Assembly: GCA_963575745.1 (NCBI GenBank)
Contig: CAUYUJ010017963.1
Coordinates: forward strand, 1-64,000
DNA length: 64,000 bases
Origin: Prorocentrum cordatum
Lineage: Eukaryota; Sar; Dinophyceae; Prorocentrales; Prorocentraceae
Direction: 5' to 3'
Shown: positions 20,476 through 59,100 of the stretch, in pieces
How positions within the stretch are numbered: the stretch's first letter is position 1
Layout of the letters: every line of letters starts with the position of its first letter
Made by a program: the position numbers and the translations under genes
The notes under the pieces: model-generated
What the model was told of the DNA's origin: nothing
The model's database searches: none
The model's input: only the letters and a program-made list of their open reading frames with translations

Positions 20476-20522
<47 letters not shown>

Positions 20523-21241
20523 GGATGAGGATGTCGATGATGATGGTGATGATGATGCTGATGCTGATGCTGCTGATGATGCGGATGATAATGATGATGC
20601 TGATGATGATGATGAATGTGCCGACGATGCTGATGATGTCGAAGCAGATGAATATGACGATGAAGGTGATGCTGACAATGATGGTGGTGGTGGTGGTGAA
20701 CAGGATGAGAACGATGACGATGACGATTGTGCTGATGGTGGTGACGACAATGACGTTGATGAGAACGAGTGTGATGATGGTGATCAGATTGACTGGTGGT
20801 GCTGATAGTGATGATGTTGTTGGCGACGGTGACGGTGACGATGACCATGATGACGATGATGCTGACGATGACGATGCTGATGATGATGATCATGATCATG
20901 ATGACGAGGATGATGATGCTGTTTGTGATGATGGTGATGACGATGGCATGATGACGATTACGATGATGATGCTGCTGATGATGCTGCTGTTGGTGATGTT
21001 GATGGTGATGCTTACGATGATGGTGACTATGATGAAGCTTGTGCTGACGAGTATAATGATGATGATGAGGATGATGATGAAGATTATGGTGATGATGATG
21101 ATCATGGTGATGATGATGCTGATGATGATACTGGTGATGATGCTGATGATGATGCTGATTATGATGCTGTTGATGATTACGATTATGATGGTGATGGTGA
21201 TGGTGATGCTAGTAATGCTGATGATGAGGACAATGATGATA

Positions 21242-21333
<92 letters not shown>

Positions 21334-27300: not shown

Positions 27301-29876
27301 CCCCCTTCTTCCCCTTCGGGGAGGGGTTTACCCCTCCCCCTACCCCTCCCCCTGGCCCTGGAGAGGTCCTTTCGCGGGTGGCCGGAGGGGTCTTTTTCGA
27401 CTCCTGGGAGGGCTAAAAAACGACACCCCTCACGAGGATTCTGGCCCCGACGGGGGGAGGCAGAAAAAACCCTCTCCTCTTCTTTGAAGCCAGAATCATT
27501 GATTTTACTACGGTTTTGGCCCCATTTTCCCCTTCTGAGGGGGCAGCGCTCATTAAAGCTCCCCTCTTCTTTCCAGGCAAAATCATTGATGTTACGAAGG
27601 TTTTGGCCTCATTTTGCCCTTCTGAGGGGGCAGCGCTCATTCAAGCTCCCCTCTTCTTTGATCGATTCCCTCCAAGATGGCCCAAGAAGCGCCCAGGAGG
27701 CACCAAGAGGCCCCAAGATGGCCCCAAGAGGCCCCCAGGAGGCCCCCAAGAGGCCTCCAAGAGGCCCCCAAGATGCCCCCAAGAGGCCCCCAAGAGGCCC
27801 CAAGAGGCTCCCCCGAGGCACCCAAGACGCTCCTGGAAGCCCCTGGGGCCGCCAAGAGGCCCCCAAGACGCCCCAAACGGCCTCCAAGAGGCTCCCAAGA
27901 GGCCCGAAGAGGCTCCCCCAAGGCACCCAAGACGCTCCTAGAAGCCCCTGGGGCCGCCAAGAGGCCCCCAAGACGCCCCAAAAGGGGACGAGGTGCCCGA
28001 ACGCCTCACGCCACGAGAAGCCCGAACGACTCACACCAGGACGAGGGGCCCGAACGACTCACACCACGAAGAGCCCGAACGACTCACACCAGAAGGAGGG
28101 GCCCGAACGACTCACACCAGGACGAGGCGCCCGAACGACTCACACCACGAGGAGCCCGAACGACTCACACCACGACGAGGGCCCCGAACGACTCACACCA
28201 CGAGGAGCCCGAACGAGTCACACCAGGAGGAGGGGCCCGAACGACTCACACCAGGACGAGGGGCCCGAACAACTCACACCACGAGAAGCCCGAACGACTC
28301 ACACCAGGACGAAGAGCCCGAACGACTCACACCACGAAGAGCCCGAACGACTCACACCAGGAAGAAGGGCCCGAACGACTCACACCAGGACGAGAAACCC
28401 CAAACGACTCAAACCACGAGGAGCGCTTTCTCTCCCTCCTCCTCCGCCTCGTCCTTCTCCCGCTCCCCCCACAAGGAGGATGTACAAGGAGGCGGGAGGA
28501 AGGAGGAACAGGGGAGATATGCGGGGGCAAGCGGACACACGCCTGCAAAACACAACAGTCGGCATGCTTCGCAAGAGTTGCTGTTGTGAGATGGGCTGGT
28601 GGGGATACGCGAAGCGTAAAGAATTCCGTCCCGATTTCTACTACCCCTCTTCACCCCTTCGTCCAGATTTCGTTCAGACGTCAACCGAATCCGACGAAAC
28701 CCCCCAAACCAAAAGGAATTTTGGGACCCTCTGAGGCTCCCAAGAAAGACCACACAATGGCTGGGCGTTCTCTCAACGCCCGACTCTTGCTCGCCACCAG
28801 CATCCGGGAACAACACCCAGTGTGGCCTGAGGTGCAGCTCCCCGTGGGGCCACGAGACGTGTGAGGGGTGTGCCAGAATGACCACGCGGAGAGGCAGAGG
28901 GACGAGGCAGGGACGGGAGGAGAAGGGGGGAGGAGGAGGGTGTGGTGGAGCGCGGCAACGCTGCGGACTTCAAACGAGGACCGAACACAACAGGATGGTG
29001 GGGAACAAATTCAACGCCCTGATCTCAGAATTCATCCCTCTTTGCTCGCCGCCGGCGTCCGGGAACAAGACCCACGTGGTCCTCGGGTCGTAGGCCGGCA
29101 CCTCGCGCACGACGCTGGCGCCAGTGCCCTCGGCGTTCGGGGCGCAGCGGCTGAGGGTGCGGTTCGTGGACCCGTCGCTGGTGTAGAGGTCGACGAGGCG
29201 CACCTGAGCGACGAAAAGAAGCGGGTCGTCAACCTTGCGCGGTGGCTTACGCGGGCCGCCAGCGAGGCACGCTGCACTGGAAACGAGGGCGCTTACTCGT
29301 GACCTTCCGCGGGCAACTTATGCGACAATGTCGGCAACAACGACCCCGCTTTCTTGCGTCGCTTACCTGGTCGGGCGCGAGCACCCTCGCGTGCATGCTG
29401 GTGGCCTCAGAGGAAGAACAAGTAGCACAGACAGAAACTGCTTGAGGTCCGCGCGGATTTCTTGGATCTGCGCTGGCGGCGACTCCAGTGCTGCCCCCGG
29501 CGCGCTCCAAGGTAGGGGGTCCATCGCCGATCCAAGAAATCCGCGCGGAGCTCCGACAATTTTTGATTATGCGATTTTTCTTCTTTGAGGCCTTCTTGGC
29601 CGCGTCATCAAAAATGACGTCGCAACGGCCAAAGGGCAGCTCCACGCGGGGGACCTCGACACCCTCCGGCACGCCGAGCGGGACGCAGCAGAACGGGCAA
29701 TAGAACATCCCGCTGTGCTTGCAGCCCGGGCATGCGGCTCGGCTCCACCGCACCACCTCGCCAGCGAGTGCGTCGAGCGCCGCTGTGGGCTGCGGCGGAG
29801 CATCTGCCGAGGAACACTGTGCCGCAGGACATGGCGGCGCCAACGCCAGTTCTGGCGCCTTGCTGGGTGACGCCAT
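11401..29876 (-). CDS. DTWD1: DTWD1-type tRNA-uridine aminocarboxypropyltransferase (8 exons)
   Basis: DTWD enzymes transfer the 3-amino-3-carboxypropyl group of S-adenosylmethionine to uridine in the tRNA D-loop (acp3U; human DTWD1 acts at position 20). The model joins 29876-29592, 29405-29367, 29203-29060, 23150-23088, 21583-21489, 20063-19964, 12245-12207 and 11454-~11401. Exons 1-7 total 765 nt, an open 255-codon frame. Family landmarks appear in order: zinc pair CPGC...[31 protein letters not shown]...WVLFP, the signature helix [35 protein letters not shown] and GGQYVPLL. Human DTWD1 is about 300 residues, so the length fits. Donors are GT, GC or GA; every acceptor is AG. Introns are 163 bp to 7.7 kb and packed with repeats. 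Uncertain points are the exon 3 donor (GA or GC, 3 nt apart), exon 4, and where exon 8 ends. Confidence 0.75.
11578..11640. repeat. (GGA)n microsatellite
   Basis: Uninterrupted GGA triplets, reading (TCC)n on the gene strand 120 bp upstream of DTWD1-like exon 8. Confidence 0.95.
11800..12170. repeat. Mixed TGCA/TGTA, TG and TGCG microsatellite
   Basis: ATGCATGC words, then TG runs, then TGCGTGCG (12049-12102), then TG again. It lies in DTWD1-like intron 7. Confidence 0.95.
12207..12245 (-). CDS. DTWD1: DTWD1-like exon 7 (39-nt micro-exon)
   Basis: [13 protein letters not shown], the near-invariant C-LSTxEA helix of DTWD proteins. Acceptor CGCCTCAG, GC donor, phase 0 on both sides. It follows a 7.7-kb intron, the largest in the gene. 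Confidence 0.75.
12280..12400. repeat. CTCCTCC / CTGCTG tract
   Basis: Pyrimidine-rich CTC/CTG/CTT words close to DTWD1-like exon 7. Confidence 0.9.
12410..13450. repeat. Dispersed block family (also at 14040-14130 and 63160-64000)
   Basis: Shares ordered landmarks with the window's right end: CTCTGTCCGGAA(G/A)AT, GCTCCCGCTGCAGCG, GTGGGCCTC, GGATCGGCGCTGTG, TCTGGATCC and a TCAGCGCAATGG(G)CAGGGA box. The region 12590-12860 holds internal duplications of the CTGCAGCG...CTCGTTCCCGC phrase. No coding function seen. Confidence 0.7.
13140..13215. repeat. (CTCTC)n / CCTCT pentamer tract
   Basis: Tandem TCCTC/CTCTC pentamers. Confidence 0.9.
13450..13990. repeat. 9-bp minisatellite (CACAGGTCC / CGCAAGTCT)
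   Basis: About 60 degenerate 9-mers of the form (CCA/CGC)(CAGGTC/AAGTCT). Nine is a multiple of three, so each frame gives periodic peptides; no independent sign of translation. Confidence 0.9.
14430..14650. repeat. ~90-bp tandem repeat (two and a half copies)
   Basis: TTTTCAAAATGTGGCTCTCG plus ATTCGTTTTCAAAC recurs near 14465 and 14550, with a truncated third at 14630. Confidence 0.8.
14930..15075. repeat. CTC/CCT tract
   Basis: Pyrimidine tract including CCCTCCCTCCC. Confidence 0.9.
15150..15300. repeat. (GTC)n / (CGT)n microsatellite
   Basis: CGTCGTCGT triplets with CGCCGC and CGATTT interruptions. Confidence 0.95.
15301..16165. other. Intronic sequence, remnant GATGCATCG words
   Basis: GATGCATCGCC-type words at 15570-15670 resemble the core of the element at 17819-18047. 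Otherwise nothing recognised. Lies in DTWD1-like intron 6. Confidence 0.5.
16335..16560. repeat. Dispersed GGATTAAGCGGGATTAA element, copy 1
   Basis: GGCAACTACTGGGAG, then GGGGGCTACTACGC, then GATTAAGC/GGGATT words, then a ...CATCAGAAT...ACCTCCCA end. Copy 2 at 24223-24410 keeps the same order of landmarks. Confidence 0.75.
16905..17215. repeat. ~60-70-bp minisatellite
   Basis: CGTGCGCTGGGTGGGTCCGG then CGAGGTTTCGCC then ACGTTGCCGCCC repeats about five times with variable spacers. Confidence 0.85.
17819..18047. mobile_element. TIR element family C, copy 1
   Basis: About 52-bp inverted ends (AGGCCTCCTAGATGGGGTCC at left, its complement at right) around a core of GATGCATCGGC palindromic words. 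Related copies are at 39892-40096 and 40700-40918. No coding capacity. Confidence 0.85.
19063..19295. mobile_element. TIR element family B, copy 1
   Basis: About 233 bp with imperfect ~55-bp inverted ends (outer GAGCAGGGACCG and CCACTGCTTGAG; inner CCTATAG...CTACCA and ATGTTCTTAGAAC). Same orientation as copies at 21810-22041 and 25989-26215. All three lie in DTWD1-like introns. Confidence 0.85.
19474..19690. mobile_element. TIR element family M, copy 1
   Basis: Ends GGACGCCCGAAGTGGGTACG and CGTACCCACTTCGATCGTCC are inverted. The interior has TACAATGCCCAACA and GGGCAGGCGGC. A second, diverged copy begins at about 22657. Confidence 0.75.
19964..20063 (-). CDS. DTWD1: DTWD1-like exon 6
   Basis: Thirty-three codons plus one base, from [15 protein letters not shown] to [13 protein letters not shown], equivalent to the conserved FWRH...G block of DTWD1. 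Its phase (entry 2, exit 0) fits both neighbours. A long (TCC)n tract (minus strand) lies upstream of its acceptor. Confidence 0.75.
20124..20225. repeat. (GGA)n microsatellite
   Basis: About 100 bp of pure GGA; (TCC)n on the gene strand just upstream of DTWD1-like exon 6. Confidence 0.95.
20246..21335. repeat. 1.09-kb degenerate (GAT)n array
   Basis: GATGAT with GCTGAT, GACGAT and GGTGAT variants, ending in about 90 bp of pure GAT. It fills most of DTWD1-like intron 5. The apparent Met-rich (plus) and Ile/His-rich (minus) open frames are artefacts. Confidence 0.95.
21489..21583 (-). CDS. DTWD1: DTWD1-like exon 5 with the DxTW-region motif
   Basis: Encodes [18 protein letters not shown] then [14 protein letters not shown]. 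This aligns with the family signature (hydrophobic strand, D-x-T-W, basic helix), but Pro replaces Thr. Acceptor GATTGTGCAG sits directly beside a family A TIR element; the donor is GC. Confidence 0.75.
21600..21698. mobile_element. Family A introner-like element A1
   Basis: GGTCCGCGCGGACGGCTTGG with ATCGGCGCTGGG at one end, and an inverted partner (AACCAAGATGTCCGCGCAGA) at the other. It lies directly beside the acceptor of DTWD1-like exon 5. Confidence 0.75.
21810..22041. mobile_element. TIR element family B, copy 2
   Basis: Same ends and internal AGAACA-type palindromes as copy 1 (19063-19295), in DTWD1-like intron 4. Confidence 0.85.
22149..22305. repeat. AT-rich dispersed repeat, copy 1
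   Basis: AATACACACAAATAAAA, CCCCCCCACTTCCCATATTT and TTAATTGTGTCTGTGT occur in the same order at 46842-46985. Confidence 0.8.
22311..22446. mobile_element. TIR element family L
   Basis: Ends GCTCGAGTTAAACGGTGTTTT-type and AAAACACCGTTTAGCTCGAG are inverted (one mismatch in ~21). Total 136 bp. Confidence 0.85.
23088..23150 (-). CDS. DTWD1: DTWD1-like exon 4 (candidate)
   Basis: Twenty-one codons, [20 protein letters not shown] plus Glu, between a CCGAG acceptor and a GTCCGAGG donor. It is placed here because VLFP-D-E-G resembles the family's FPS-ED-A turn and because the phases fit. Sequence conservation is weak, so this is the least certain internal exon. Confidence 0.45.
23855..24085. repeat. 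GCGCGAA-rich tandem repeat
   Basis: About three ~100-bp units carrying GATGCGCGAA...CTT(T/C)(A/G)CGCTCTCG in DTWD1-like intron 3. Confidence 0.65.
24166..24560. repeat. CCCGGGTCA / CTGCAAGATCC element and GGATTAAGCGGG element copy 2
   Basis: CCCGGGTCAGTCAGGCCT and GATCC...CGCTCTG...CCCCCGTCTCAAGGCTCCC recur at 43345-43575. Between them, 24223-24410 matches the element at 16335-16560. Confidence 0.7.
24770..25780. repeat. 1-kb degenerate minisatellite (GGCAACCAGAA...CGCGACAA)
   Basis: Repeated phrase GGCAACCAGAAGCCGCGACA...TGGGGCA(T/C)CA...GCGCCAGCCA with variable spacing. Lies in DTWD1-like intron 3. Confidence 0.85.
25989..26215. mobile_element. TIR element family B, copy 3
   Basis: Same ends as copies 1 and 2 but more diverged on the right arm. 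Confidence 0.8.
26370..26542. mobile_element. Hairpin element family E, copy 1
   Basis: Shares AGCCTTCCA..., CACCCTGGAGGCAAGCAGGG and TTCCCACTGTA with copy 2 at 38541-38716. The CACCCT...AGGGTG arms form a short hairpin. Both copies are in introns. Confidence 0.75.
27660..27985. repeat. CCCAAGAGGCCCC-type tandem repeat
   Basis: Short degenerate (CCCCCAAGAGG)n words with a 112-bp internal duplication (GGCACCCAAGACGCTCCT at 27816 and 27928). Related to 3075-4245. Confidence 0.85.
27990..28430. repeat. 27/30-bp minisatellite (CCCGAACGACTCACACCA)
   Basis: About 15 units of CCCGAACGACTCACACCA followed by GGACGAGGGG, CGAGGAG or CGAAGAG. Confidence 0.95.
29060..29203 (-). CDS. DTWD1: DTWD1-like exon 3
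   Basis: Forty-eight codons from VRLVDLYT to TTWVLFP, matching the family's IYTYP...ALIFP region. The acceptor is TCGCTCAG. The donor is inferred: ending at CCG before GAC (GA donor) gives VLFP-DEGSS; ending three bases later (GC donor) adds one Asp. About 45 bp of this exon end is repeated near 28780-28826. Confidence 0.7.
29367..29405 (-). CDS. DTWD1: DTWD1-like exon 2 (39-nt micro-exon)
   Basis: Encodes [13 protein letters not shown], the family's KSTAIHAKLLAPE-type block. Boundaries are clean: acceptor CTTCCTCTGAG and the only GTAAGC-type donor in this gene. Phase 0 on both sides. Confidence 0.8.
29444..29569. mobile_element. Family A introner-like element A2 (DTWD1-like intron 1)
   Basis: GAGGTCCGCGCGGATTTCTT and AAGAAATCCGCGCGGAGCTC are inverted ends around ~65 bp. 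The 186-bp intron (29591-29406) is this element plus short flanks; its acceptor side ends CTTGTTCTTCCTCTGAG. Confidence 0.85.
29592..29876 (-). CDS. DTWD1: DTWD1-like exon 1
   Basis: Ninety-five codons from ATG at 29876. It carries the two-knuckle zinc motif (CPGC, x8, CPFCC) and [15 protein letters not shown], matching the family's conserved Cys-rich start and LP...DII segment. The ATG lies 36 nt after a strong predicted spliced-leader acceptor. The exon ends GCCAAGAAG before a GC donor. Joined to exon 2 it reads [19 protein letters not shown]. Confidence 0.8.
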
Positions 29877-31162: not shown

Positions 31163-31196
<34 letters not shown>

Positions 31197-33425: not shown

Positions 33426-33429
33426 CCCT

Positions 33430-37337: not shown

Positions 37338-37460
37338 CTACGTGGCGCGCCGCCCGAAGAAGAGGAGGTACGCCCTCTCGCTCGGGACCCGGGCCGGCTC
37401 CAGGGGCTCCACCTCCTCGTCGTCGAAGAGATGCCAGCGCTGCGTGAGCCCGTGGCGGAC
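37338..37460 (-). CDS. USP exon 8: Asp box and C-terminus
   Basis: VRHGLTQRWHLFDDEEVEPL and SERAYLLFFGRRAT then TAG. With exon 7 it reads HYTSA-VRHGLTQRWHLFDD, the usual spacing between His and Asp/Asn boxes. The C-terminus ends with the core domain. Confidence 0.85.
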   Translation of the reverse strand, partial: VRHGLTQRWHLFDDEEVEPLEPARVPSERAYLLFFGRRAT

Positions 37461-40400
37461 CTCGAATCCCAGGGAAGAGTTCCCCCCCCCCCCCCAAGGC
37501 CATATAACGCGCGCGCCCCCCAAGGCTTTTTCAATCCGTGGGTTCGGCCTCCAAGGCCTGTTCTCGGGCCTGGGGGCCATCAGAAATGCGCCCCCCCGGC
37601 CCCCCCTCGTCTCCCTCCCCGTAGCGCCTGCTTTCGCCGCGAATTGCCAAATCCACTCCAGGGCGAGCTGAGATAACGGCGGCCCAGGATCGGTCCCCGG
37701 ACTCCTCCCGGGGTCCAAACTGGTCAGGGCTCGGGTTGCGCACAGGCAGCCCCCCAGGTGGTCCCCGCTGGCTTCCACAGGCCCCCCAGAGGGTCTCCAT
37801 AGGCCCCCCGAGAAGCCCGGGGCGGCGCCCCTGGGACGCTCCGACCGCCCTGGACCACTGGGGGGGCCTCTTGAGGCCAGCTGGATCTAATGCGGGATGA
37901 CGATTAGTAAAAAAAATGCGAGAGAACGATACAACAAATAGTTTTCTGCTATTTCTGCATAATTTTCTGACTGGAGGAAAACGATAAAAAATAGTTTTCC
38001 AGCCCGCGGCCGGTTTTTTCTAATCGTCATCCCGGGCGCCGCCGCGTGAACACGACCCCCGGCCATTTATCAATCGTCATCCTCCATTACTCGGGGGGCC
38101 TGTTGAGGCCAGCTGGGACGACCTGGGGGGGCGGGGCTGCCTGTGCGCAGCCGGAGGCCTTACCGATGTAATATAAGCGCACCAGCTTTCCGAGTGGCGC
38201 TCCGCCGTGGCGGCGAAGGGCCCCCCCGAAGCCACCGTGGCCTCGGCTCGCCCTCGTCGGACGACCGCGGAGGTGTAGTGCCCGAAGCCGCAGGACCCGG
38301 CGTGGTAGGTGACGGCGAAGAGGTCGAAGGCGGCCTGCGCGTCGGGGCCGCGCGCGGCGACCACGCCCAGGGGGCCGAGCCGCAGGTCCCGCAGCGCAAA
38401 GTCGACGTGGTGGCCCAGCTTCCTGGCCCGGTAGGCGAGCAGGGAGGGGCCGTCGCCCCCCGGGGACGGGACGGCGTCGAAGCGGAAGCGCTTCAGGTGG
38501 ACAATCATGGAGGGAGGAAGGACGGCATGCAGCAGGAGCTCGACCACAGGAGGCCTTCCACGTGAAACCCAACTCCGAGACCCCGGGACGTCCATGAATT
38601 TTTGGGGTGGGAGCGTCACGTTTTCCAGCGCAGAACTAGGGACATCCAAAAAAAAACGGGACACCCTGGAGGCAAGCAGGGTGTTTCTTGGCCTGGCCTT
38701 CCACTGTATAAGTAAGCGTTCGGAGCTCCGCGCGGACTTCTTGGGATCGGCGCTGGGGCGCGCGGAGCGCGCCCTGAGGCGGCGCCGGTGGCGGCGCCAA
38801 GGGAGGCCCAGCGCCGATACGAGAAATCAGCGCGGAGCACCGACAGTTGATGCTCAATCATGTCACGTTTCCTCCCTCGAGATCAGCACCCGGGGCAGCC
38901 TCCACAGCGTGATGACCTTGGCGGCGTCCACGCGGTCGCGGCAGCGCGGGCAGTTCCAGCGCTCGCCGCCCGACAGTTTCTCCTCGCGGGAGAACTCCCC
39001 GAAACACTGCTCGAGGGTACTCAGGGGTGCCCCCGCGGCGTCGACGACCGGGAGCGACAGGCAGGTGAAGGTCTCGAACTTGCGAGAGACAAGGCCGCAG
39101 CGGAGGCACTGGATCTGCGACCTCAACTGCCCCTGGAAGACGTCCGTGACTATCGACGCTTCCTGCTGAAGAAGCGAAGCTCGGCATAACTATAAGTTTT
39201 CGGAGGTCCGCGCGGACTTCTCAAGATCAGCGCTGGGCCCCCCTCCCTGGCGCAGGGGCGGCGCGGGAGGAGGCAATTTACGTCTCATACGGGCGCCCCT
39301 CCCCGAAGCTGCACCAGAGACGGTCCGACACATCTGAGAGGGGCTCCGGGAATTCATGTTTCTGCAATTTTCTCTCCCTCGACTCCTGCTGCAGAGAGTG
39401 CGCCCACTGCTCCTCTGCCGCTCTCTCCTCCTGCTCGGCGCTCATGGCTCCCTCCAGGCGCCCAACGTGCCCGCCGCCACGCTGCCCGCCGCGTACCCGG
39501 TTGAGCTGCTCGTGCAGGCAGGTCAGCAGGTAGTCCGCGAACTCCTGGGCGTCCTGCTGGTCCACGCCGTCGAACTGCTCCTCCTTCAGAGGACAACAAG
39601 AAAAACGGCATGAACATAACTTTCGGAGGTCCGCGCGGATGTCTGGGATCGGCGCTGACATTTACGGTCAGGAGCTGTTGCCTAGCATGTCACGGCGGCG
39701 GCCCTGGCGTCACGCCATGCCTTGCAAGCGGACAGCGTGTCGCTCCGCCCCGTAGGGCGGGAGGCTGGGAAGTGCTCGGGATGCCGAGGCTTGGGAATGT
39801 GGATGTAGATAATTAGCATGTCGAGCTGAAGCGTGGTGTGCCAGAACCGGCGCAGCGACGCGCCCAAACACAAATCCCTGACCGCGTGCAAAGGCCTCCA
39901 GGATGGAGTCCGAGCAGGTGGGGTAAGAGCATCGCGCCGCACCTCCGATGCGTCGGGGATGCAGAGGCGACGTCAGCGGTGCATCATCGACGCCAGCGCG
40001 GAGAACATCGGGCTCCGCATCGAGCCGCACCGCCGATGCCCTGGCGATGCGGCGCGATGCTCCGACCCCACGTGCTGGGGCCCCACCGGAGAGGCCCAGA
40101 CCTTGCTCCCGCCGCCTCTTCTTCCCCGATCCTTGGCCGCGAGCGCATCCCTGAACCTTCGAGCAGGGGATCGACTACAGAATGAATGGATTCACCACAT
40201 ATTTGTTTTTTCCGTCGAATCTACGAGCAGTGCGTAGACTGCTCCGAAAATCTATGGGGCATTCTACGTTTTTCTGTGATCAATTCTGCAGCCGACCCTG
40301 AGATCCGACGTTGCGAAACAATTGCAGCATTGCAAGAACCACGACCGGAACCCAAACCCATCTTTCTGCGCATTTTTTCAGGGCCGGATCGATCTCTGAG

Positions 40401-43400
40401 GGTCCACGGGCCCGGAACTGGGCGAAAGCGCCCGTCGCGAAAAACTGCAACGTCAGGATCTCAGGGGATCCCCTGCTCGAAACCTCGAGATCCGGTGGGG
40501 CCCCGACTGCCCCGCGCCCCGGGCCCAGATCGCCGCGATCACGGCCGCGAACTCCCGCGCGACGGCGCCCTGCGCCGCTCCCGCGATGGCGAGGTCTCTC
40601 GGGCCGGGCGGCGGGGGCGGGTGTGTGTGGCGGCCCAGCTCGCGCAGCTGGCTTCCCAGTGGGGGAGCTCACGAACGGCCACGGGGGTCTGGGTCGAAAA
40701 GCCTCCCAGATGGGGTAGGAGTAAACCGGGTCGGAGGATCGCGCCGCATCGCCGAGACATCGGCGATGCATCGGCGATGATACATCGGCGACGTCGGGGA
40801 TGCATCGGCGACTTCGATGTAAAGCAAGTCGGGCTCCACATCGAGCCGCTTCGGCGATGCAGCGGCGATGCGGCGCGATCCTCCGACCCAATCTACTCCG
40901 GCCCCATCTAGAAGGCCTACAGGGTCCCATATCCCCCCCCCTTCGCGGGGCCTGGGTCTCTCCGCCGGGCGGCGAGCATGCTGTCACGGTGCGGGAGACC
41001 CTGAGATCCTGGCGCTGCATTTTTGGTTCGCAACGAGCGCTTTCGCTACATTTCGGGCCCCAGGGGACCCTCACAGATCGATGCGGCTCGAAAAATGACG
41101 CATACACATGGGTCCGGGGCTGCGGCCGCGATGTTGCGATGTTGCATGTTGTTTCGCAACGCCGGATCTCAAAGCATCCATATCCACACCCTCGCAGTCT
41201 GGATTCCGGGTGCGCGATCCCGCGGGATCGCGGCCGCACGGGTGCGCTGCGCGCGGGGCCTCCGCGAGAAAGCGCCCCGGATCCGCCAGGCGAACCAGCT
41301 CACGCAGCTGGCTTCCCTGAGATCCGACGTTGCGAACGAACATGCAACATCACAGAAATTCACGACCGGAGCCCAAGACCCCATCCTTCTGCGTCATTCT
41401 TCGAGCCGGACCGATCTGTGAGGGTCCCGGGGCCTGACACTGGGCGAGTATGGCCGCTGTGAGACAGTTGCCACAACAGAATCTCAATGTTGCCAAGCAT
41501 GCTTGCGGCCGCCGGAGGCCCGGACCGGGCCCCAGGAGCGTCCCCCAAAATATGAGCCAGGACAAAAAAACCGGGCCCCAGGAGACGGGCCCAGACCGCT
41601 GGTGGACCACGCCAGGAACAATCACGACGCCAGAGGTTTCCATGGACCTTGAGATCCTGGCGTTGCAATTTTTTCACAGCGGGCGTTTTCGCCCAGTTTC
41701 GGGCCCTGGGACCCTCACAGATCGGTCCGGCTCGAAAAATGACGCAGATGGTGTCTGGGGCTCTGGTCGTGGATTTCTGCGATGTTGCTTTTTTTTCGCA
41801 ACGACTTCGGATCTCAGAGGAGGAGCAAACAACTGAGGTCCGCGCGGATTTCTTGGACCGACGCTGAACCCCATGGCGGCGACTCTGACGTCGCCCCTGG
41901 CGCGCTCCGCGCGCCAGGAAAGGAGCCCCAGTGCCGATCCAAGAAATCCGCGTGGAACTCCGACACTTTATGTTCATGCTGTTATTTGACTTTCGATTCC
42001 AGGCGCCTCCCGGCGCAGGAGGCGACCATGTGTACATCGAGGAGAAAGCCCCGCGGGCCCGAAGCCAGCTGCGTGCGGCACTCTCTGGAACCGCCCCTGT
42101 CCCCATCCCCAGACGTCCGACGTCGTGACTTTTCCATGACGTGGGCCCCCACAGGACTCTGGACCCCTCCCCTCTAGGACCGGCACGGTGAGGTCCCGAG
42201 GCCCGTGGGGGGCCCCCAGAGGCCTGGCTCCGAGGCTAGGTGAGGAGGACCCCCAGGAGCCGACACCCGTCAGAAAAACCGCCCGTCGTGACTTCTTCGC
42301 AGCGGGAGCTGGACCACGACTCGGACCCGTGGCGTCCGCTCGGGACGAGCCGGGCCCCCCAGGGAGGCCCTCGGCGAGACCCAGACTGCCAATCGCCTTC
42401 CGTCGTTCCCAGACCCCCGACGCCGCATCTCTTCCACGACGTCGAGCCCCAGAGGTCTGGACCCCGTCCCCGGGACCAGCTCTTCATCCTGGACTTGTTC
42501 CTTGATGGTCCCGCAGCCCAGCGAAGGCCCCCACTGGCCATCGCTCGGACGTCCATTCCCTGTGTTTTTTTCGGCTTCGTGCGTGGTTTTTTCGGCAAAT
42601 GGTCAAGGATGCTCCTCGATGGTCCCCGCCGAGGAAAAAACGCACACGTCCGAGCGATGCCAGGCCCAGAGGCCGAAGATAGCGAAACACCTGCCGCCCC
42701 TGATTCTTCCACAACGCGAGGGCGTCCGGGGCCGTCGTATAACGTTTGCGAGGCCCGGTCTGTGTCCCCATGCCCAGACCCACTCGCGTGAAGGGGCAAA
42801 GTCACGACGGGAGGTTTCTCGCTGTGTTTTCGGCCTCTGGGAGCCCTTACACCCTCGCCTTCCAAAGAAAGGTGCAACATAGCCCTCCAGGCCTATAGAC
42901 CTGCCTGGACTGCCTGAAACCACGACAGGAATCTAGATGTCGAGATCCTGGTGCTATTTTGTAGCCCCCTGGGAAGGTCTGGGCAGGGCCTCGGGACTGT
43001 CAGCAAACCACGCGGGAGGAAACACCAGTTCCGGGGAAGGGGTCCAGACTTCGTGGGGTCGACGTTGTGAAACAATCACAACGTCGGGGGTCAGGTGAGG
43101 AGCCGAACTTTATACACCGACGCCTTTGTCTGGCATCACACTGAATCTCGCACAGGAAAGCGGATCCCGGTGTATACGGGATCCTGGTTTATACATTCTT
43201 CGTTGTTTCCCCGGGAAAACCGGGAAACAAGTATACACCACGCCACCCCGACGTCGTCCCCGACCCTCAAGAAAGTCCTGGGATTGAAAAACCGCCCGCC
43301 ACTGGTAATGTATATGCCTCAATTTCCGATCAGGGCCCCCCTCGGGGATCTTCTGACCCGGGTCAATCCAGACCCGGGTCAGTCAGGCCTGCAGGATCCT

Positions 43401-45536
43401 GCAAGCTCCTGCAAGATTTGACCCAAACCCGGGTCAATGCGAAGGATCCTGCATGATCCTGCAGAATCCTGCACCCAAACCCGGGTCAATGCGACCCTGG
43501 CCCTGCAGGATCCTGCAAGATCAGGCGCTCTGGCTGACACCCGCTTGCATTGACCCCCGTCTCAAGGCTCCCGACCCCCCCCCTCTTCGCCCGGCCCGGG
43601 TCTCGCTGCAGCGGGCCGTCCGCCCGGCAGTACCCCACGAGCGGCTCGGCGCCAGCCAGGCACTGCAGCAGGGAGTTCACGCACAGAGGGACAGAAGACG
43701 GCAGGCCCTGGCGTGGAAGATGTTGTCGACTGCACGCAATGAGTGGCGCTGGGCAAGAGTGACCTTTGGTGCGCGTTTTCTTCGGGGCGGGAGGTAAAGG
43801 GCAGAAAATCCACCCCGATAATAACCACCTCGACACGCGAAGCCGTTTAGTAAACGCACCCAAAGAAGGAATCAAACAGGGCAGGGCTGTTTAGTAAACG
43901 CCCAGGGCCGTTCAATAAACGCCAATTGTCCGATCAGGGTGGTCTTTCCTCCCTTGAGGAGGGGGCCAAACCTGAGCGCGCAGGCCGCCGCCATCGCATC
44001 GCGCTCAGCGGTCGGGGGAATCCCAATGAGCCCGCACCAAAGGACCATCCGGCGAAAGGGCACTCGTAGCAGATTGTTCGCAGCGGGATAGGTCGGACCC
44101 CAGGACCATCACGGATCGAACTGGCTCGAAGCATGCCGCAGAAAGATGGGGGCCGGGGCTCCGGCCGAGTGTTTGTTCCGAAACTGCAACGTTGGATTCA
44201 AGGGTTAAAAACATAAGTTTTCGGAGGTCCGTGTGGACTTCTTGGGCTGGCGCTGGGCCCCTCCTCCCTGGCGGCAGGGGCGCGCCAGAGGCGGCGGCGG
44301 CGGAGGCGCCGCCAAGGGGCCAGCGCCGACACAAGAGATCCGCGCGGTCCTCTGAACGTTACGGTAGACAAAAATCACGACCGCAGCCCCTGGACCCCAT
44401 CTTGCCGCTCCACTTTCTCGAGCCGGACCGCGAGCTCTGTGAGGGTCCCGCGGCCCGAAGCGAGGCGACAATGTGTGAAACCAACTGCAACCGCAGGCTC
44501 TCTGGGCACGCCGTTCTCTGCCCCCTCGGCTGTAACAGGAGTTGCCCAGGTTCTGCAGGCCGACCAGGCCCCGGCCGGCCTCGGCGGGCGCCAACGCCCG
44601 AGTGGCCGCCGGCGGGGGCGCCCGCTGGCCGCTGTCGCGCGGGGCCTCGGGCGCCGCGGGCTGCGGCGCGCGGCCCACCTCGGCGCGCGGGCCCGGCGAG
44701 GCCGCGGGGGGGGCCGCGGAGGCCGCGGGCTGCAGCACCCGGTCCACCCAGGCGGCGGGGATCTGCTGCTTCACGCCGCTCCGGAACACGACGCTGATCA
44801 GGCCCCCGGGCAGCCTCTCCGCCACCCTCGCCTCCACCGGCTTCGTGCTCCAGCGCTCGGCGAGGCGGAAGTAGGTGGAGACCATGGCGCCCACGGGCGG
44901 CTCGCAAGGCGCCCGGCCGCGGGCAGCCTGGCCGAGGCCCACCAGCCGCTCGAACTCGGCCTCGCCGATCATGCCGCCCGTCGGGCGCGCGAGGGCCCAC
45001 GCCTTCGCACACGCCTCGTGGCGCGCGGCGGGCGCGTACGCCGGTTCGGGGAAGTAGAAGCCCATGATCCGCATGAAGTCCTCCCGGCCGATGCCTGGGC
45101 GCTGCCGCCCGAGGATCTGGAAGGCGCGGCGGGCCGAGAAGCCGTGGCGCTCGATGTCCTCCGCCAGCGGCACCAGCACGCCGTGGTCGGGCGCCGAGCC
45201 GCCCGCCGCGCCACGCACCGCGCCGAGGACCGGGGTGCGCAGGTCGGGCGCCGTGCTGGTTGGCGGGTGGCGCGCCGCGCCGGGGGCCGCGGGGCGCAGG
45301 TCGGGCGCAGTGTGGGTTGGCGGGCCGCGCATCGCGCCGGGGGCCGCGGGGCGCAGGTCGGGCGCCGTGTGGGTTGGCGGGACGCGCACCGCGCCGGGGG
45401 CCGCGGGGCGCAGGTCGGGCGCCGCGCAAGGGGCCGCGGGGCGCAGGTCGGCCGCCGTGTGGGTTGGCGGGCCGCGCACCGCGCCGGGGGCCGCGGGGCG
45501 CAGGTCGGGCGCCGTGTGGGTTGGCGGGCCGCGCAT
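37338..45536 (-). CDS. Ubiquitin-specific protease (USP family, 8 exons)
   Basis: USPs are cysteine proteases that remove ubiquitin from proteins. Model: exon 1 ~45536-44532; 2 43680-~43589; 3 ~40599-40508; 4 40174-40132; 5 39583-39386; 6 39162-38917; 7 38538-38266; 8 37460-37338 (stop). Landmarks in order: Cys box GLQNLGNSC, VNSLLQCLAG, FAAVIAAIW, FRDALAAKEEQFDGVDQQ then DAQEF, VFQGQLRSQIQC with paired CxxC fingers (CLRC, CPRC), MIVHLKRF, His box GFGHYTSA and RWHLFDDEEV with AYLLFFGRR. Exons 3-8 join in phase with exact codon counts (exons 5-8 give 66, 82, 91 and 40 residues). An N-terminal 19-residue repeat and an EF-hand-like region precede the protease. All catalytic residues are present. 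Uncertain: the start codon and the exon 1/2 and 2/3 junctions. Confidence 0.85.
37890..38036. mobile_element. TIR element family H (USP intron 7)
   Basis: GGGATGACGATTAGTAAAAA and TTTTTTCTAATCGTCATCCC are inverted ends. The AT-rich core has two ATAGTTTTC words. A third ATCGTCATCC lies at 38071. Confidence 0.8.
38266..38538 (-). CDS. USP exon 7: His box
   Basis: Ninety-one codons: LLLHAVLPPSMIVHLKRFRF to CGFGHYTSA, with the catalytic His. The insert between the LKRF and His boxes is short, so this is a compact catalytic core. GT donor. Confidence 0.85.
38541..38716. mobile_element. Hairpin element family E, copy 2 (USP intron 6)
   Basis: Matches 26370-26542 in AGGCCTTCCA, GAAACCCAAC, CACCCTGGAGGCAAGCAGGG and CTTCCACTGTA. 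It abuts USP exon 7 on one side and element A3 on the other. Confidence 0.75.
38716..38850. mobile_element. Family A introner-like element A3 (USP intron 6)
   Basis: TTCGGAGCTCCGCGCGGACT with TTCTTGGGATCGGCGCTGGG, inverted at GCGCCGATACGAGAAATCAG. With family E it makes up most of the 378-bp intron 38916-38539. Confidence 0.8.
38917..39162 (-). CDS. USP exon 6: zinc-ribbon subdomain
   Basis: Eighty-two codons: EASIVTDVFQGQLRSQIQC, CLRCGLVSRKFETFTCLSLP, then WNCPRCRDRVDAAK. The two CxxC pairs form the USP fingers subdomain. The GT donor follows AAG. Confidence 0.85.
39188..39275. mobile_element. Family A element A4, one arm (USP intron 5)
   Basis: AAGTTTTCGGAGGTCCGCGC, GGACTTCTCAAGATCAGCGC and the GGCGCAGGGGCGGCGC core. 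The far arm is missing. It lies in the 223-bp intron 39385-39163. Confidence 0.75.
39386..39583 (-). CDS. USP exon 5: QQDAQEF box
   Basis: Exactly 66 codons from EEQFDGVDQQDAQEFADYLL to EEQWAHSLQQ. Acceptor TCCTCTGAAG; the GA donor lies inside a CAGCAGGA direct repeat shared with the next acceptor. Confidence 0.85.
39608..39664. mobile_element. Family A element A5, one arm (USP intron 4)
   Basis: AACATAACTTTCGGAGGTCC and GATGTCTGGGATCGGCGCTG, beginning about 25 bp from USP exon 5. Read towards the exon, the acceptor side ends CTTGTTGTCCTCTGAAG. Confidence 0.75.
39690..39875 (-). pseudogene. Possible reverse-transcriptase fragment in USP intron 4
   Basis: The minus-strand frame reads LDMLIIYIHIPKPRHPEHFP then ASRPTGR, resembling the IPKP...RPI region of non-LTR reverse transcriptases. 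It is short and unsupported by other motifs. Confidence 0.3.
39892..40096. mobile_element. TIR element family C, copy 2 (USP intron 4)
   Basis: AGGCCTCCAGGATGGAGTCC and GGGGCCCCACCGGAGAGGCC ends with the GATGCGTCGG core; more diverged than copy 1. Confidence 0.75.
40132..40174 (-). CDS. USP exon 4 (43-nt micro-exon)
   Basis: One base plus 14 codons, RSPARRFRDALAAK, equivalent to the vSPxxFkxaL segment. Acceptor TTCTGTAG; GA donor (GCCAAG then GATCGG). Phases fit both neighbours. Confidence 0.65.
40297..40465. mobile_element. TIR element family G, copy 1 (USP intron 3)
   Basis: CCTGAGATCCGACGTTGCGA and GCAACGTCAGGATCTCAGG are inverted ends. It occupies half of the 333-bp intron 40507-40175. 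Confidence 0.85.
40508..40599 (-). CDS. USP exon 3
   Basis: RDLAIAGAAQGAVAREFAAV and IAAIWARGAG match the USP helix before the Trp. The GT donor (GGGGCA then GTCGGG) leaves two bases that exon 4 completes. Confidence 0.7.
40700..40918. mobile_element. TIR element family C, copy 3 (USP intron 2)
   Basis: AGCCTCCCAGATGGGGTAGG and CCCCATCTAGAAGGCCT ends, GATGCATCGGCGA core. Confidence 0.8.
41000..41172. mobile_element. TIR element family G, copy 2
   Basis: CCTGAGATCCTGGCGCTGCA and CGCAACGCCGGATCTCAAAG ends, with CCCTCACAGATCGATGCGGC inside. Opposite orientation to copy 1. Confidence 0.8.
41316..41487. mobile_element. TIR element family G, copy 3
   Basis: CCTGAGATCCGACGTTGCGA start and ACAACAGAATCTCAATG end; same orientation as copy 1. 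Confidence 0.8.
41648..41818. mobile_element. TIR element family G, copy 4
   Basis: CTTGAGATCCTGGCGTTGCA start and CAACGACTTCGGATCTCAG end; same orientation as copy 2. Confidence 0.8.
41834..41975. mobile_element. Family A introner-like element A6 (USP intron 2)
   Basis: GAGGTCCGCGCGGATTTCTT and AAGAAATCCGCGTGGAACTC inverted ends. On the gene strand the downstream side ends GCTCCTCCTCTGAG, like the acceptors next to A2 and A5, and it directly abuts family G copy 4. Confidence 0.85.
42090..42500. repeat. Tandem copies of the GACGTCGTGA...GGTCTGGACCCC family
   Basis: Cassettes near 42110-42320 and 42410-42500 (CCAGACGTCCGACGTCGTGA, GAGGTCTGGACCCCGTCCCC). Confidence 0.6.
42537..42662. mobile_element. 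TIR element family K, copy 1 (USP intron 2)
   Basis: GGCCATCGCTCGGACGTCCA and ACACGTCCGAGCGATGCC inverted ends. Nearly identical to 47099-47224. Confidence 0.85.
43100..43250. repeat. GTATACA-rich short inverted-repeat region
   Basis: TTATACACCG, GTGTATACGGGATCC, TTTATACATTC and AAGTATACACC words plus GTTTCCCCGGGAAAACCGGGAAAC form several small palindromes. No second copy seen. Confidence 0.45.
43345..43575. repeat. CCCGGGTCA / CTGCAGGATCCTGCA element, copy 2
   Basis: GACCCGGGTCA repeated four times with CTGCAGGATCCTGCAAG words and a CCCCCGTCTCAAGGCTCCC end shared with 24166-24560. Confidence 0.75.
43589..43680 (-). CDS. USP exon 2
   Basis: VNSLLQCLAGAEPLVGYCRA and DGPLQRDPGRA continue the Cys-box helix (canonical N-T-C-[YF]-x-N-S-x-L-Q-C-L). 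No AG sits exactly at the expected start, so the 5' junction is unresolved; a GC-GAAG donor would give phase 2 into exon 3. Confidence 0.65.
44090..44206. mobile_element. Partial family G element, copy 5 (USP intron 1)
   Basis: AACTGGCTCGAAGCATGCCG, GGGGCCGGGGCTCCGG and AACTGCAACGTTGGATTCA resemble family G ends and interior. Confidence 0.55.
44206..44355. mobile_element. Family A introner-like element A7 (USP intron 1)
   Basis: AACATAAGTTTTCGGAGGTC start, CGACACAAGAGATCCGCGCG inverted end and a GGCGGCGGCGG core. Confidence 0.8.
44357..44508. mobile_element. Diverged family G element, copy 6 (USP intron 1)
   Basis: ATCACGACCGCAGCCCCTGG, TCGAGCCGGACCGCGAGC and GTGAGGGTCCCGCGGCCC match the family G interior in order. 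Confidence 0.55.
44532..45536 (-). CDS. USP exon 1: N-terminal repeats, EF-hand-like region, Cys box
   Basis: The frame opens with repeats of RGPPTHTAPDLRPAAPGA, then a region with ARRAFQILGRQRPGIGREDF (loosely EF-hand-like) and VKQQIPAAWVDRVL, a Pro/Ala linker, and finally GLVGLQNLGNSCY with the catalytic Cys. The ATG at 45536 is in frame, but a TGA lies 15 codons upstream. The first ATG after the predicted trans-splice site (45613) is in another frame, so a small intron or an internal start is implied. Confidence 0.6.
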
Positions 45537-45555
45537 CGCGCCGGGGGCCAGGGCG
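45240..45555. repeat. 57-bp coding minisatellite in USP exon 1
   Basis: Five to six units of GGGGCCGCGGGGCGCAGGTC plus GGGCGCCGTGTGGGTTGGCG. The unit is 19 codons (RGPPTHTAPDLRPAAPGA type). One unit is shortened to 30 bp, keeping frame. Confidence 0.9.
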
Positions 45556-45699
45556 CGCCGCCCGCTCTGGCGGCGCCGTCAGGCGAGGCCCCGCGCGTCC
45601 GGGCGGGTGCCATCGCGGAGGCGCTCGGGTCCCGCGGGGGGCGCTGGCGGCTCGCCGCCGCCCTCCGCCAGCCGTGGGCGCGGGGCCCGGCTGCTCGAG

Positions 45700-45875: not shown

Positions 45876-46840
45876 ATTATATAAGAGCATCGTTGACGCC
45901 AAGTGTCTCTCTGTCTTCGCAGGTCCTGGCATCGGTGAGGCACGAACTCGTGCCAACGGAAGACGCCGACAGGCACCCTGCGCTGGGAATTCAGCGACTG
46001 GCCTGCGAACGCCACGGCTCATGGATGGCCCGCGCGTGGGCTCGATAGCATACGCCGCCAGCCTCAGTGCAATCCCCCCCCCCGCCCCCGCCCACTCCCA
46101 GCCGTGCCCCGCCCCCGTCCCATTCTTCTGCTGACGGCTTGCGACCTTAAAAGGGCCTTCTTCTATCTTTTCAAAAATGAAAACAGAACCAGGAGTGATA
46201 CTCCCGTTCAAAAACAAACCAACCAGTCTCACAGAAAGCGCATCGAGCCGAGCTGCAACTCTCATCACCTCGGTCTCAGTGCTGCCAAGCTCTCGTCTGT
46301 CTGGTCTCGCAATCTTGCGAGCTCTTCCCGCTCGAGAGACCCCCGCGGCGGGAGCCCCGCCTGCAGGATGCCCTGCTCCTTTTTCTCAAGGGCGTACAAC
46401 ACGCCCCTACCCTGGTTTACCAGGCGCTGTGCGCTGAATCTCCTGTGGGCTGACAGGGTAAACCCTGCGTGATGTGCGGCGTCCTGGCGGCTCTCTAGGC
46501 TGGGAAGGTTCCCAGGAGGTTTACAGACCCATTTATTTGTAACTCAGGGCAGGGTCGTTTTTTTCTCCTCCCTTGATTTTCAGCGCCTCCACTGCTGCCT
46601 CCTGCAACTCCGTCCACTGGGCACCGAAACAAATCGTGATGTGCGCCGCCTCTGTCTAGCTCTCCTTTTTTGCGGGTATCCTTGATGCGACAGTGACGAA
46701 TCTGCTCGGCCAGGTCCTAATGGTCCCTCTGGAGGACCTGCTCCGTCCAACAGTTCTCGGTGACTGTGCGGCTCCTCTCGGGCAGTCCCGCGCCGCCGTG
46801 CGCCGCCTTGATCGTGGCCTTGATGAAGAGGCCCTGGGAC
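45876..46840. other. Spacer upstream of USP gene, nothing recognised
   Basis: A CCCCCCCCCGCCCCCGCCC run at 46073-46091. No convincing gene or repeat otherwise. Confidence 0.5.
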
Positions 46841-46841
46841 A

Positions 46842-46985
46842 CACAAATGAATACACACAAATAAAACTATCCCCAATGTTTTCATATATTTTCTTGGTTT
46901 TTGTCTTCCCCCCCACTTCCCATATTTTCCCATATTCCCCTGGGAATCGACGATTAATTGTGTCTGTGTGTTTTTACCCTCCTGA
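46842..46985. repeat. AT-rich dispersed repeat, copy 2
   Basis: AATACACACAAATAAAA, CCCCCCCACTTCCCATATTT and TTAATTGTGTCTGTGT as in 22149-22305, same orientation. Confidence 0.8.
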
Positions 46986-51270: not shown

Positions 51271-51315
<45 letters not shown>

Positions 51316-56180: not shown

Positions 56181-59100
56181 CTGATGATGATGATAATGAT
56201 GATGATGGTAATGATGATGCTGCTGATGATGATGCCAATGACCATGACGATGATGACTGTGATGGCGATTGCGATGGTGATGCTGTTGATGATGGAGGTT
56301 TCTGGTGCTGTGCTGCTGCGCGTCAGCCTGACGCAAAAGCGGGCGGCCTGGCCAAGGGTCTCGTGGAGCCTGCCTCCAGGACCCGTGCCCGAGCAGGGGC
56401 GGCCGCGGGCAGCGGCTGCAGACGCCCGCGCCCTCGGCAAGCTGCGGGCGGGACGGGCATGAGCTCGGGCAAACGCTTTTTACGTCAGCGGCAAGGCAGA
56501 AGTGCTGCTCCAGCGGGCGGCCATCGGGGCGACCGATGCGCGAATTGGCCGGCGTGCAGGAGAAGGGAAAGGGGGGACAGGGCGGCCGCGGAGGACAGGA
56601 GGACGAGGAGGAGGGAACTCAGACGTGGAAGAAGAATTCCATGGGGCTCGGGCAAGCGCCACGCTGGAGTTCCCGGGACGGGGCCCGGAGACCGAACCTC
56701 AAGGAATCCAGTCTTCGGATGTTCCCCAGACCCCGCGCGTTGTGACAAAAATCGCGACGAGAGGTTTTTCGCTGTCTTCGGCCTCTGGGAGCCCTTACAG
56801 GGCCTCGGGGCCGCCGAAAAACGGCTCGGGATGAAAAACCAGTCCCCGGGAAGGGGTCCAGACCTCATGGGGTCGACGTTGTGGAGAAGTCACGACCTTC
56901 CGAGGGCCTTCCAGAACCTTCCGAGAGCCTCAGGGGTGGACCTCTGGCGGAAGGGGGCGAGGGGAGGAGGGGACAACACGACGCTCCACATAAAAAGCTG
57001 CATCCGATTGGCTTCTTCCCCCGCGAGGGGCGTTACAGGGTAGGTCAGTATCCAGGTGCGGTCAAGAACTGTTTGTTTTTGGCGCAGCTCTGGAGAAGGG
57101 GGAGACAACCGAGGGGAATACGACTGCGAAGCATCAGATGAGACCTTCTGTCCTCAACGTTGGGTTCCGGTCGACTCCACGGAAGAACCATCAGCAAACC
57201 TGACAAGCAGTGCGACACCTGCAGCGCTGAGCCATGCAGCAGCACCACCGCTGAGCCATGCAAGCGGCGCGTCGCGGCGGATCCGTCGACACGCCACGCC
57301 CTGCCAGCGTTATGTCGGGCCTGTCCCCCCACAGGGGAATTTTCGACGAAAAAAATACCCCCAGAAACAATAAAAAGAATAGTCCAAAAATAGTCTGGGG
57401 ACTATCTTTTGAATATTATCTGACCCTTTTCGGGGTACTTTTCTTTTCCCGTCGAAAATCCCCCTGTAGGGGGACAGGCCCGACTTGATGCCAGCGGAAG
57501 GCGCGCTTCGCGGGGCGGGGCGCCGGGAGAGACGCTCGGGACGCCGCATCTCGGGGACCGCGGTGTGGTTGGCGTTTCGCGCCGCAGCGTGGTGGGCCAG
57601 CGCCGGCGGCGCGGCCCGCTAAGCAGAAGTTCTCGATCGTACAGTTGGGGCCCTGAAGAAAGAACCCTTTTGGTTGGGGAGGGGCTCCGTGTTCCTTAAT
57701 TGTTTCGCAGCTTGCCTCAGGGTTTCCTTGTGTTTTCGATGGGGAATCGAAGTTTAACTTATGGAAAAAAGGGGCCTCGTTCCTTATTTAGGGTTCCTTA
57801 TGTCAACGCCCCGACGGTACATCGAGGAGCTCTGAGAGTTGGCGGGCCCGCAGAACGTGTCGGGCGCCGCTGCCGTTCCAGGACGTGCTGCGAGCGTCTC
57901 GGACCGATTTGGAGCGACTCATCTCCTCATCCTATGCCCGCTTCCCTCAGGCCCCAACACCCAGAGACCCCATCCACCAGCCGACGAAGCGAAATCGTAA
58001 AACAGCATGGCCATCGCATAGGGAGGCATGTCCGGCGCGGCTGGGAACTTTCTGGGCGCGTGCATCGCCATGGGCACGTCACGACGTCAGTCGAGCCAGG
58101 GCGGGCTTTCCCCTGCAGCGGAATTCTTGCATTTTCTGGTGTCATTCGTCCGCTGACTCCTGGCTGAGAGGATCCGGTAACGGCATACGCATGAACCTTC
58201 AGTGGTCTGCTGCGCGGATTTCTTGGATTTTCGCTGGAGCCCCCTGGCGGCGCTTCCAGCGTCGCCCCCGGTGCGCTCCGCGCGCCAGGGAGGGGGGTCC
58301 CCGCGCCGATCCCAGAAATCCGCCTGAGCCCCCGAAAGGTTATGTTTGTGCTGTTCTTCTTCTCCAATGGCGGGACCTGGTGGGACTGGGGGTGCATGTG
58401 TCCATGCCCACACGGCAGTGGAAGCCATCACCGATCCAAGCGCCATCGACCCTGGGCCCCCTCATGTGGGGCCCGCTGGGCCAGGCTGGAGGAGGGGGCA
58501 TTGCACGGAGGACGAGATCATGCTGATGCTGGTGATGATGATGCTGCTGCTGAGGCCGATGACGACGACCATGATGATGAACCTGATGCTGATGCTGATG
58601 CTGCTGCTGATGATGGTGATGGTGGAGGGATGGTGATGATAATAATGATGATGATGACGGCGATGAAAACGATGATGACAATGGTGATGATGACGCTGCT
58701 GCTGATGATGATGCCAATGTCGGTACCGATGCCAATGACGACGACGATGATGATGATGATGGTGATGATGATGATGATGGTGGTCATGATAATGATGACA
58801 CTGACGACGATGGCGATGCTGCTGATGATGATGATGCTGATGATGATGATGATGATGCTGGCGGTGATGAAGGTGCTGATTATAACGATGCTGATACTGC
58901 TGATGATGATGAAACTGAGGATCATGATGGTGATGCTGATTAAGCCCGTGGCGATGACAGCGGTGAGACGATGATGACCAATACATGTGATGTCGATCCA
59001 TATGAACATTACAATTTCAGCTATTAGGACAATGCCGATGCCGATTCCGATGATAATGCTGATGATGATGAGGATGAATCTGAAGATGATGATGCTGCTG

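Follow-up and report, generated by a model that had tools for sequence, protein, structure and literature searches.

Most introns of a ubiquitin-specific protease (USP) gene in Prorocentrum cordatum, together with several introns in neighboring genes, very probably arose by insertion of short, nonautonomous, MITE-like transposons with terminal inverted repeats (TIRs), as judged from the DNA sequence. Direct repeats lie at the intron junctions, inverted repeats lie at the intron termini, element arms stand at a fixed spacing from junctions, one element family (A) occurs in two genes, and paralogs of the USP gene are uninterrupted. The locus provides a base-resolution view, within one gene, of the traces that intron-creating transposons probably left; putative intron-making elements can be separated there from later passengers, and a testable class of introns without AG is indicated. 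The window analyzed covers bases 1-64,000 of contig C17114, and the genome searched comprises 4.13 Gb of P. cordatum, for which 59.7% GC, introner-rich introns, and donors of the GT, GC, and GA types have been reported (PMC10666404).

The USP gene, its published model, and its neighbors

Placed by homology, eight exons on the minus strand (45536-44532, 43680-43605, 40598-40484, 40156-40132, 39583-39386, 39162-38882, 38503-38266, and 37460-37338) join in frame from an ATG at 45536 to a stop at 37338. The seven-intron gene that a first-pass annotation had drawn at 37338..45536 is therefore exact in its limits, with a frame open across all eight exons. The translated product has a Pfam UCH domain (E = 1.5e-47) and matches USP8 and USP2 best among PDB entries, which identifies it as a ubiquitin-specific protease; the Cys and His boxes are kept, and GC3 is 0.946. 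At its N-terminus, the USP has a proline-rich repeat (RGPPTHTAPDLRPAAPGA and variants), encoded by a tandem repeat at 45185-45558. Six homologs, probably from dinoflagellates (P0002-P0007), align across the exon joins; relative to them, no extra residues were found at introns 1 (four homologs covering), 4, 5, and 6, small length differences occur close to introns 2, 3, and 7, and the homologs fit intron 7 best with its junction moved one codon upstream from the initial placement. Paralogs within this genome read on without interruption at the positions of intron 6 (U6; four loci) and of introns 1, 5, and 7 (U1, U5, and U7; two loci each). Compared with paralogs rather than with orthologous sites, U1, U5, U6, and U7 may be insertions into formerly uninterrupted coding sequence; paralog identity is 37-50%, so intron loss in the paralogs is possible.

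The public model for the locus, P0001 ("unnamed protein product [Prorocentrum cordatum]", on a 218,928-base contig), spans 37338-59679 and joins a GH92 and a USP domain in a single protein, the GH92 part coming from the upstream gene. Over the parts shared with the eight-exon model, 485 of 581 columns are identical, with 93 gaps and 3 mismatches. P0001 departs from the homologs at introns 1, 2, and 6 of USP. It has 14 additional residues at intron 1, omits exons 3 and 4 together with the second half of exon 5, and stops inside intron 6, whereby exons 7-8, including the His box, are lost. If general, errors of this type could contribute to the modest completeness of the P. cordatum genome, given as 61.4 in the alveolata_odb10 row of PMC10666404.

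A second minus-strand gene is DTWD1-like: PF03942 is present in its public model, P0058, and in relatives, and the partial model built here gave no Pfam hit itself. For GH92, the junctions of introns G1-G3 were taken from P0001, which is also the sole support for the exon downstream of G3. GH92 was the only domain above the curated cut-off in Pfam scans of stop-masked minus-strand frames covering 46501-60500 and 24001-36600 (three frames), 10001-13000 (three frames), and 19000-21998 (one frame), and an Rfam search of the window returned no match. Three further sequence features were recorded. Within DTWD1-like intron D3, 28780-28900 on the minus strand reads HWVLFPD.. and by eye is close to the sequence that ends the DTWD1-like exon upstream; this stretch was absent from the matches listed in a BLAST search with that exon. 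Long stretches of low complexity, rich in isoleucine (ATT/ATC-type codons), occur at 20245-21369, 55370-56299, and 58629-59513 and match one another, and a large tandem repeat block of period ~73 bp at 5261-9049 is itself duplicated (5496-7595 vs. 7002-9144, 92%).

Element ends at intron ends

Sixteen anchored introns were compared: U1-U7 of USP, D1-D6 of the DTWD1-like gene, and G1-G3 of GH92. The junctions of U1, U2, U6, and D5 were set by homology, frame, and repeats, splice signals not being used. Direct repeats at the junctions averaged 4.88 nt, compared with 2.22 nt for swapped ends (0/100,000 permutations). This excess was retained in the 12 introns with ordinary signals (5.42 vs. 3.45; 1/100,000) and in the eight ordinary-signal introns outside USP (5.38 vs. 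3.27; 1/100,000), and a repeat of at least 4 nt was present in 13 of the 16 introns, the exceptions being U1, D5, and D6. Terminal inverted repeats scored 19.2 vs. 13.6 for swapped ends (2/100,000), an effect that was modest in the 12 ordinary introns alone (1087/100,000) and in the eight outside USP (1563/100,000). For the four non-AG introns alone, neither the repeat nor the inverted-repeat test was strong (4171 and 4056 of 100,000, respectively).

The share of 132 swapped pairs with an equally high inverted-repeat score was 0 for U2, U3, D2, and D5, 0.02 for D1, 0.03 for U6, 0.08 for U1, 0.17 for D4, 0.21 for D3, 0.55 for U4, 0.76 for U5, and 0.94 for U7; inverted repeats were absent or weak in U7, D6, and G1, G2, and G3, and close to the chance level in U4 and U5. 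Among the eight introns folded in silico (U1, U3-U7, D1, and D2), end-to-end pairing exceeded every end-shuffle in U4, U5, U6, D1, and D2. Predicted pairing in U1 and U3 lay above the mean and below the best shuffle, and U7 had nearly none. When duplex energies of own and swapped ends were compared across introns, 92 of 100,000 permutations reached the observed value, and the ends of D5 formed the second strongest predicted duplex among the 16.

Family A links a repeated element to intron ends. In the window, a 16-base piece of the A arm matched 14 times at up to 3 mismatches (1.89 expected; 0/100 shuffles reached 14) and the 35-base A core matched 16 times at 22 or more matching bases (0-3 in six Markov resamples). 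Six of the 16 core matches end 36-40 nt from a splice junction (P = 3e-13), namely the 3' junction of D4, both junctions of D1, the 5' junctions of U6 and U5, and the 3' junction of U4. A seventh such arm, 38 nt from the 3' junction of U5, was missed by the core scan and found from self-comparison coordinates. These seven core-bearing ends are mutually alike, with only 0-0.3% of random 40-mers scoring as high. The terminal-motif test is unspecific, the core-less ends of U3 and D2 (0.5% and 0.3%) scoring like those ends of U1, U4, and D4 that are tentatively assigned to A (1-4%).

Two introns consist of an A element from splice site to splice site: D1 (29406..29591, minus strand; 186 nt, GC-AG, repeat AGGCC), with arm cores 36 nt from both junctions, and U5 (39163..39385, minus strand; 223 nt, GA-AG, repeat CAGCAGGA), with arm cores 37 and 38 nt away. 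The earlier assignment of copy A4 to intron 5 holds for a whole element, though one whose 5' arm is decayed (24/35 matches); its arms align from an equal offset, though at low identity. In U4 (39584..40131, minus strand; 548 nt, GA-AG, repeat AAGGA), the A5 arm core lies 40 nt from the 3' splice site and a family C element is nested; in U6 (38504..38881, minus strand; 378 nt, inverted repeat GAGGGAGGAA, repeat TGAT), the A3 arm core lies 39 nt from the 5' junction and a family E element is nested; and in D4 (21560..23087, minus strand; 1528 nt, GT-AG, repeat GAGGT), an A arm core lies 37 nt from the 3' junction. We firmly interpret family A as intron-defining in introns 4, 5, and 6 of USP. The same firm interpretation is given to a second family in intron 3, U3 (40157..40483, minus strand; 327 nt, GT-AG, repeat AGGTT), which is bounded by the perfect 15-nt TIR TTCGAGCAGGGGATC; this sequence had 339 matches in the genome vs. 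4 for the control. Ends of a repeated element hence coincide with intron ends for A in U4, U5, U6, D1, and D4 and for the TIR in U3, and such coincidence was not found for U7, D3, D6, or G1-G3. D2 (29204..29366, minus strand; 163 nt, GT-AG, repeat CAGGT) has a TIR of ~24 nt of its own (AGCGACG..GGGTCGT).

Family A is common to the USP and DTWD1-like genes, at unrelated positions. Six of its eight loci in the window interrupt coding sequence, which makes up 4.5% of the window (P = 2e-7, counting U1). The proportion is 5/8 without U1 (P = 9e-6) and 2/3 outside USP (P = 0.006); the eight-locus count drops two chance-level single matches (2497 and 57245), with which it becomes 6/10 (P = 1.5e-6). 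The remaining two loci are A6, inside U2, and a copy at 58203..58334, which is not at a known coding exon and has a 4-bp flanking repeat, GCCA (by eye).

Across the genome, the A core had 64,376 matches vs. 1,252 for the control, i.e., ~63,000 arms above control, and two-arm copies measure ~200 bp (core spacing plus the 34-nt outer TIR). Being short, bounded by TIRs, and of high copy number, A fits a MITE. Termini of 190 sampled genome arms were of TAGGGG type in 81, of CAGAGG type in 57, and undecided in 52, while among 11 window arms, seven leaned toward CAGAGG by >2 points, four were undecided, and none leaned toward TAGGGG. A discrete, intron-competent CAGAGG subfamily was considered and rejected, its consensus having only 27 genome matches at up to 3 mismatches (0 in the control). 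A search for proteins retaining A read-through in one frame found nothing. One genomic locus (C22:65566-68566) holds three A copies within 1.8 kb and may mark a gene with several A introns.

The genome-wide coding context of A was assessed in 70 distinct two-arm copies from 85 loci, nearly all of the first 100 matches listed, a sample of exact core matches that favors young copies. Canonical splice sites, a repeat, and coding flanks were found together for 3/70 copies vs. 17/840 displaced controls (Fisher P = 0.19), and a looser flank test gave 8/70 vs. 76/1031 (P = 0.24), both being weak tests. The known introns D1 and U5 score 2.4 and 8.3 for flank coding-likelihood in the stricter test and 4.7 and 5.6 in the looser one, where both fall below the threshold of 6, and flank coding-likelihood was rejected as too weak for a genome-wide test. 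There is no sign that most A copies adjoin exons; only some of them are introns. That copies are as frequent outside genes, a refuting outcome named in the first-pass annotation, may hold for A genome-wide, where the sampled copies show no significant coding excess; in the window, 6/8 loci interrupt coding sequence.

The other named families behave differently from A in the USP gene. Self-BLAST and an inverted-repeat search of the window placed A in introns 1, 2, 4, 5, and 6, G in introns 1, 2, and 3, C in introns 2 and 4, E in intron 6, K in intron 2, and H arms in intron 7, so all seven USP introns hold at least one element, as the first-pass annotation had claimed. Its contents for introns 4 (C and A5), 6 (A3 and E), and 7 (H) were recovered. 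In intron 1, where it had listed A7 and two G relics, A and G were found and the second relic was seen by eye only; its single G in intron 3 is present, but nested inside the TTCGAGCAGGGGATC element, which was absent from its list. The size range of 70-235 bp fails for K (42409-43095) and H (37722-38164), both much longer than 235 bp. Copies outside USP were located at 21.6k, 29.4k, and 58.2k for A, 17.8k for C, 26.8k for G, 26.4k for E, and 16.2k and 56.8k for K. As introners in USP, C, G, E, K, and H were rejected: they are internal, define no USP intron, and are best described as passengers. The proposal that many TIR families serve as introners in this gene is accordingly sustained to the extent that several introns look like short TIR insertions from more than one family, and not for C, G, E, K, and H.

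Introns 2 and 7 are less readily assigned. U2 (40599..43604, minus strand; 3006 nt), with K, A6, G, and C inside, has a strong terminal inverted repeat, CGGGCCGGGCG, and the 6-bp repeat GAGACC; the best of 86 in-frame canonical choices within 60 nt is 2.2 bits better than its homology junction. Its ends resemble those of D5, a likeness that only 0.05% of random window 40-mers equal in score. A candidate family "Z" (CCCGGGCCGGGCGAAGAG) common to both introns was rejected, with 62 genome matches vs. 32 in the control and no clear repeat. U7 (37461..38265, minus strand; 805 nt, GT-AG) has only a short direct repeat of 4 bp, no terminal inverted repeat having been found, and contains H and a nested element, J (37888-38089). 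In a USP paralog (L090, on C20229), a GT-AG intron with the 8-bp repeat AGGTTCGC (junctions by eye) contains a 203-nt match to 37888-38089, 90% identical over 204 columns and ending 2 nt before the acceptor; an element that is a passenger here therefore adjoins a splice site elsewhere.

These patterns suggest a mechanism in which a MITE-like element would insert into a coding exon and duplicate ~4-8 bp of target, and splicing would remove the element with one copy of the duplication, restoring the protein. The outer TIR of family A is rich in purines and at the 3' end would be read as a pyrimidine tract, and the duplication may supply the GT, GC, or GA donor and the G of the acceptor, or the whole AG. 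Later insertions of C, G, E, K, and H/J would have lengthened the introns, with C in intron 4 and E in intron 6 presumably landing between terminal motif and core. Transposition would then be the cause of the junction structures and the source of the splice signals, and the introns would be spliced in vivo. An alternative is that the introns are older than the elements and that MITEs accumulate in introns because exon insertions are lost. The positions of C, G, E, K, H, and A6, inside introns and away from junctions, agree with this, as does the lack of a significant coding excess among sampled genome A copies; it leaves unexplained, however, the constant spacing of 36-40 nt between A arms and seven junctions, the junction repeats, and the one-element introns D1 and U5, and we consider it improbable as an account of these introns.

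Introns without AG at the homology junction

Three introns lack an AG acceptor at the junction indicated by homology. Besides U6, these are U1 (43681..44531, minus strand; 851 nt), which has a terminal inverted repeat with the A7 core and G relic material inside, and D5 (20042..21493, minus strand; 1452 nt), which has the TIR CCGGGCCGGCCG and a junction repeat of 2 nt. At D5, the public model P0058 likewise differs from its relatives. U6 alone among the non-AG introns combines an inverted repeat with a 4-bp repeat (TGAT), U1 and D5 having inverted repeats and junction repeats of just 1 and 2 nt. The A cores in U1 lie 177-309 nt from the junction; its ends are probably A-type, on a weak test in which 1% and 4% of random 40-mers score equally high.

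Scored against the homolog profile, the placed junction was itself the best canonical choice in U3 (within 0.3 bits), U4, U5, U7, and D1-D4. For U1, U6, and D5, the best in-frame canonical choice within 60 nt fell 20.3, 15.2, and 11.7 bits below the homology junction and added 14, 9, and 5 residues, respectively. Excision at the homology junction without AG is suggested by these profiles for all three. The introns might instead be spliced at nearby ordinary GT/GC/GA-AG sites, partly inside the TIRs, with few residues added, a reading we rate at somewhat below an even chance. In-frame canonical alternatives within 60 nt are numerous (27 for U1, 27 for U6, and 38 for D5), P0001 shows the very 14 residues that the best canonical U1 choice gives, and some Aureococcus introners are comparably spliced, changing the protein by few residues (PMC9860276). 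Against this stand the lower scores and the residues gained; the additions at U1 and U6 would strike the conserved motifs CY|xNS and VLI|VHLKRF, and extra residues occur in none of the homologs covering the sites (four for U1, six for U6) and in none of the paralogs (two and four).

The USP copy could also be a dying gene, killed by recent non-AG insertions and yielding nonfunctional RNA, as two USP insertions without canonical signals at the homology junction and the truncation of P0001 at U6 might indicate. We regard this as unlikely, given the open frame over eight exons, the intact Cys and His boxes, the GC3 of 0.946, and the fact that the DTWD1-like gene has such an intron too (D5). More tentatively than for splicing at ordinary sites, we suggest that P. 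cordatum may remove a class of AG-less introns marked only by TIRs, with or without a surviving target duplication. If so, the gene finding used on this genome, adapted to GT/GC/GA donors only, would let such introns silently truncate or scramble many of its published models. The literature searched, from which subscription journals were mostly absent, reports no non-AG introns in P. cordatum.

Comparison with known introner systems

Introners with TIRs and target site duplications (TSDs), several families per genome, and dinoflagellate cases have already been published. Introners of Symbiodinium microadriaticum have a 4-bp TSD and TIRs; their 5' splice site comes from the TSD, and the 3' site lies on the element or at its edge (Gozashti et al. 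2022, PMC9860276). The putative insertions described here share the TSD, the TIRs, and the presumed source of both splice sites. Unlike that system, family A is very large with only some copies shown at exons, and some introns are without AG. For P. cordatum itself, introner elements have been described that carry, close to their ends, inverted repeats 8-20 nt long and direct repeats 3-5 nt long (Dougan et al. 2023, PMC10666404), matching our introns in species and end anatomy. The description of that search, made in annotated introns with tools adapted to GC and GA donors, names no families; AG-less introns probably lie outside the set. Polarella glacialis has 12,253 introner introns in 15 large families (Roy et al. 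2023, cited in PMC11453091), a likeness in the many families active in one dinoflagellate genome, and use of several families is accordingly not in itself new for dinoflagellates.

U6 has a parallel in Amoebophrya, a parasitic relative of the free-living dinoflagellate P. cordatum. The noncanonical introners of Amoebophrya combine inverted repeats (8-20 nt) with direct repeats (3-5 nt), are without GT-AG, and are supported by RNA-seq (Farhat et al. 2021, PMC7789003); U6, known from sequence alone, fits this type with its inverted repeat and TGAT direct repeat. Nonconventional introns of euglenids and diplonemids, an unrelated lineage, have no conserved borders, pairing ends, and direct repeats, and a MITE origin has been proposed for them (PMC4770533, PMC12621601); in P. 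cordatum, the pairing of intron ends is a prediction. An AG-less class in P. cordatum would resemble the nonconventional introns of Amoebophrya or of euglenids.
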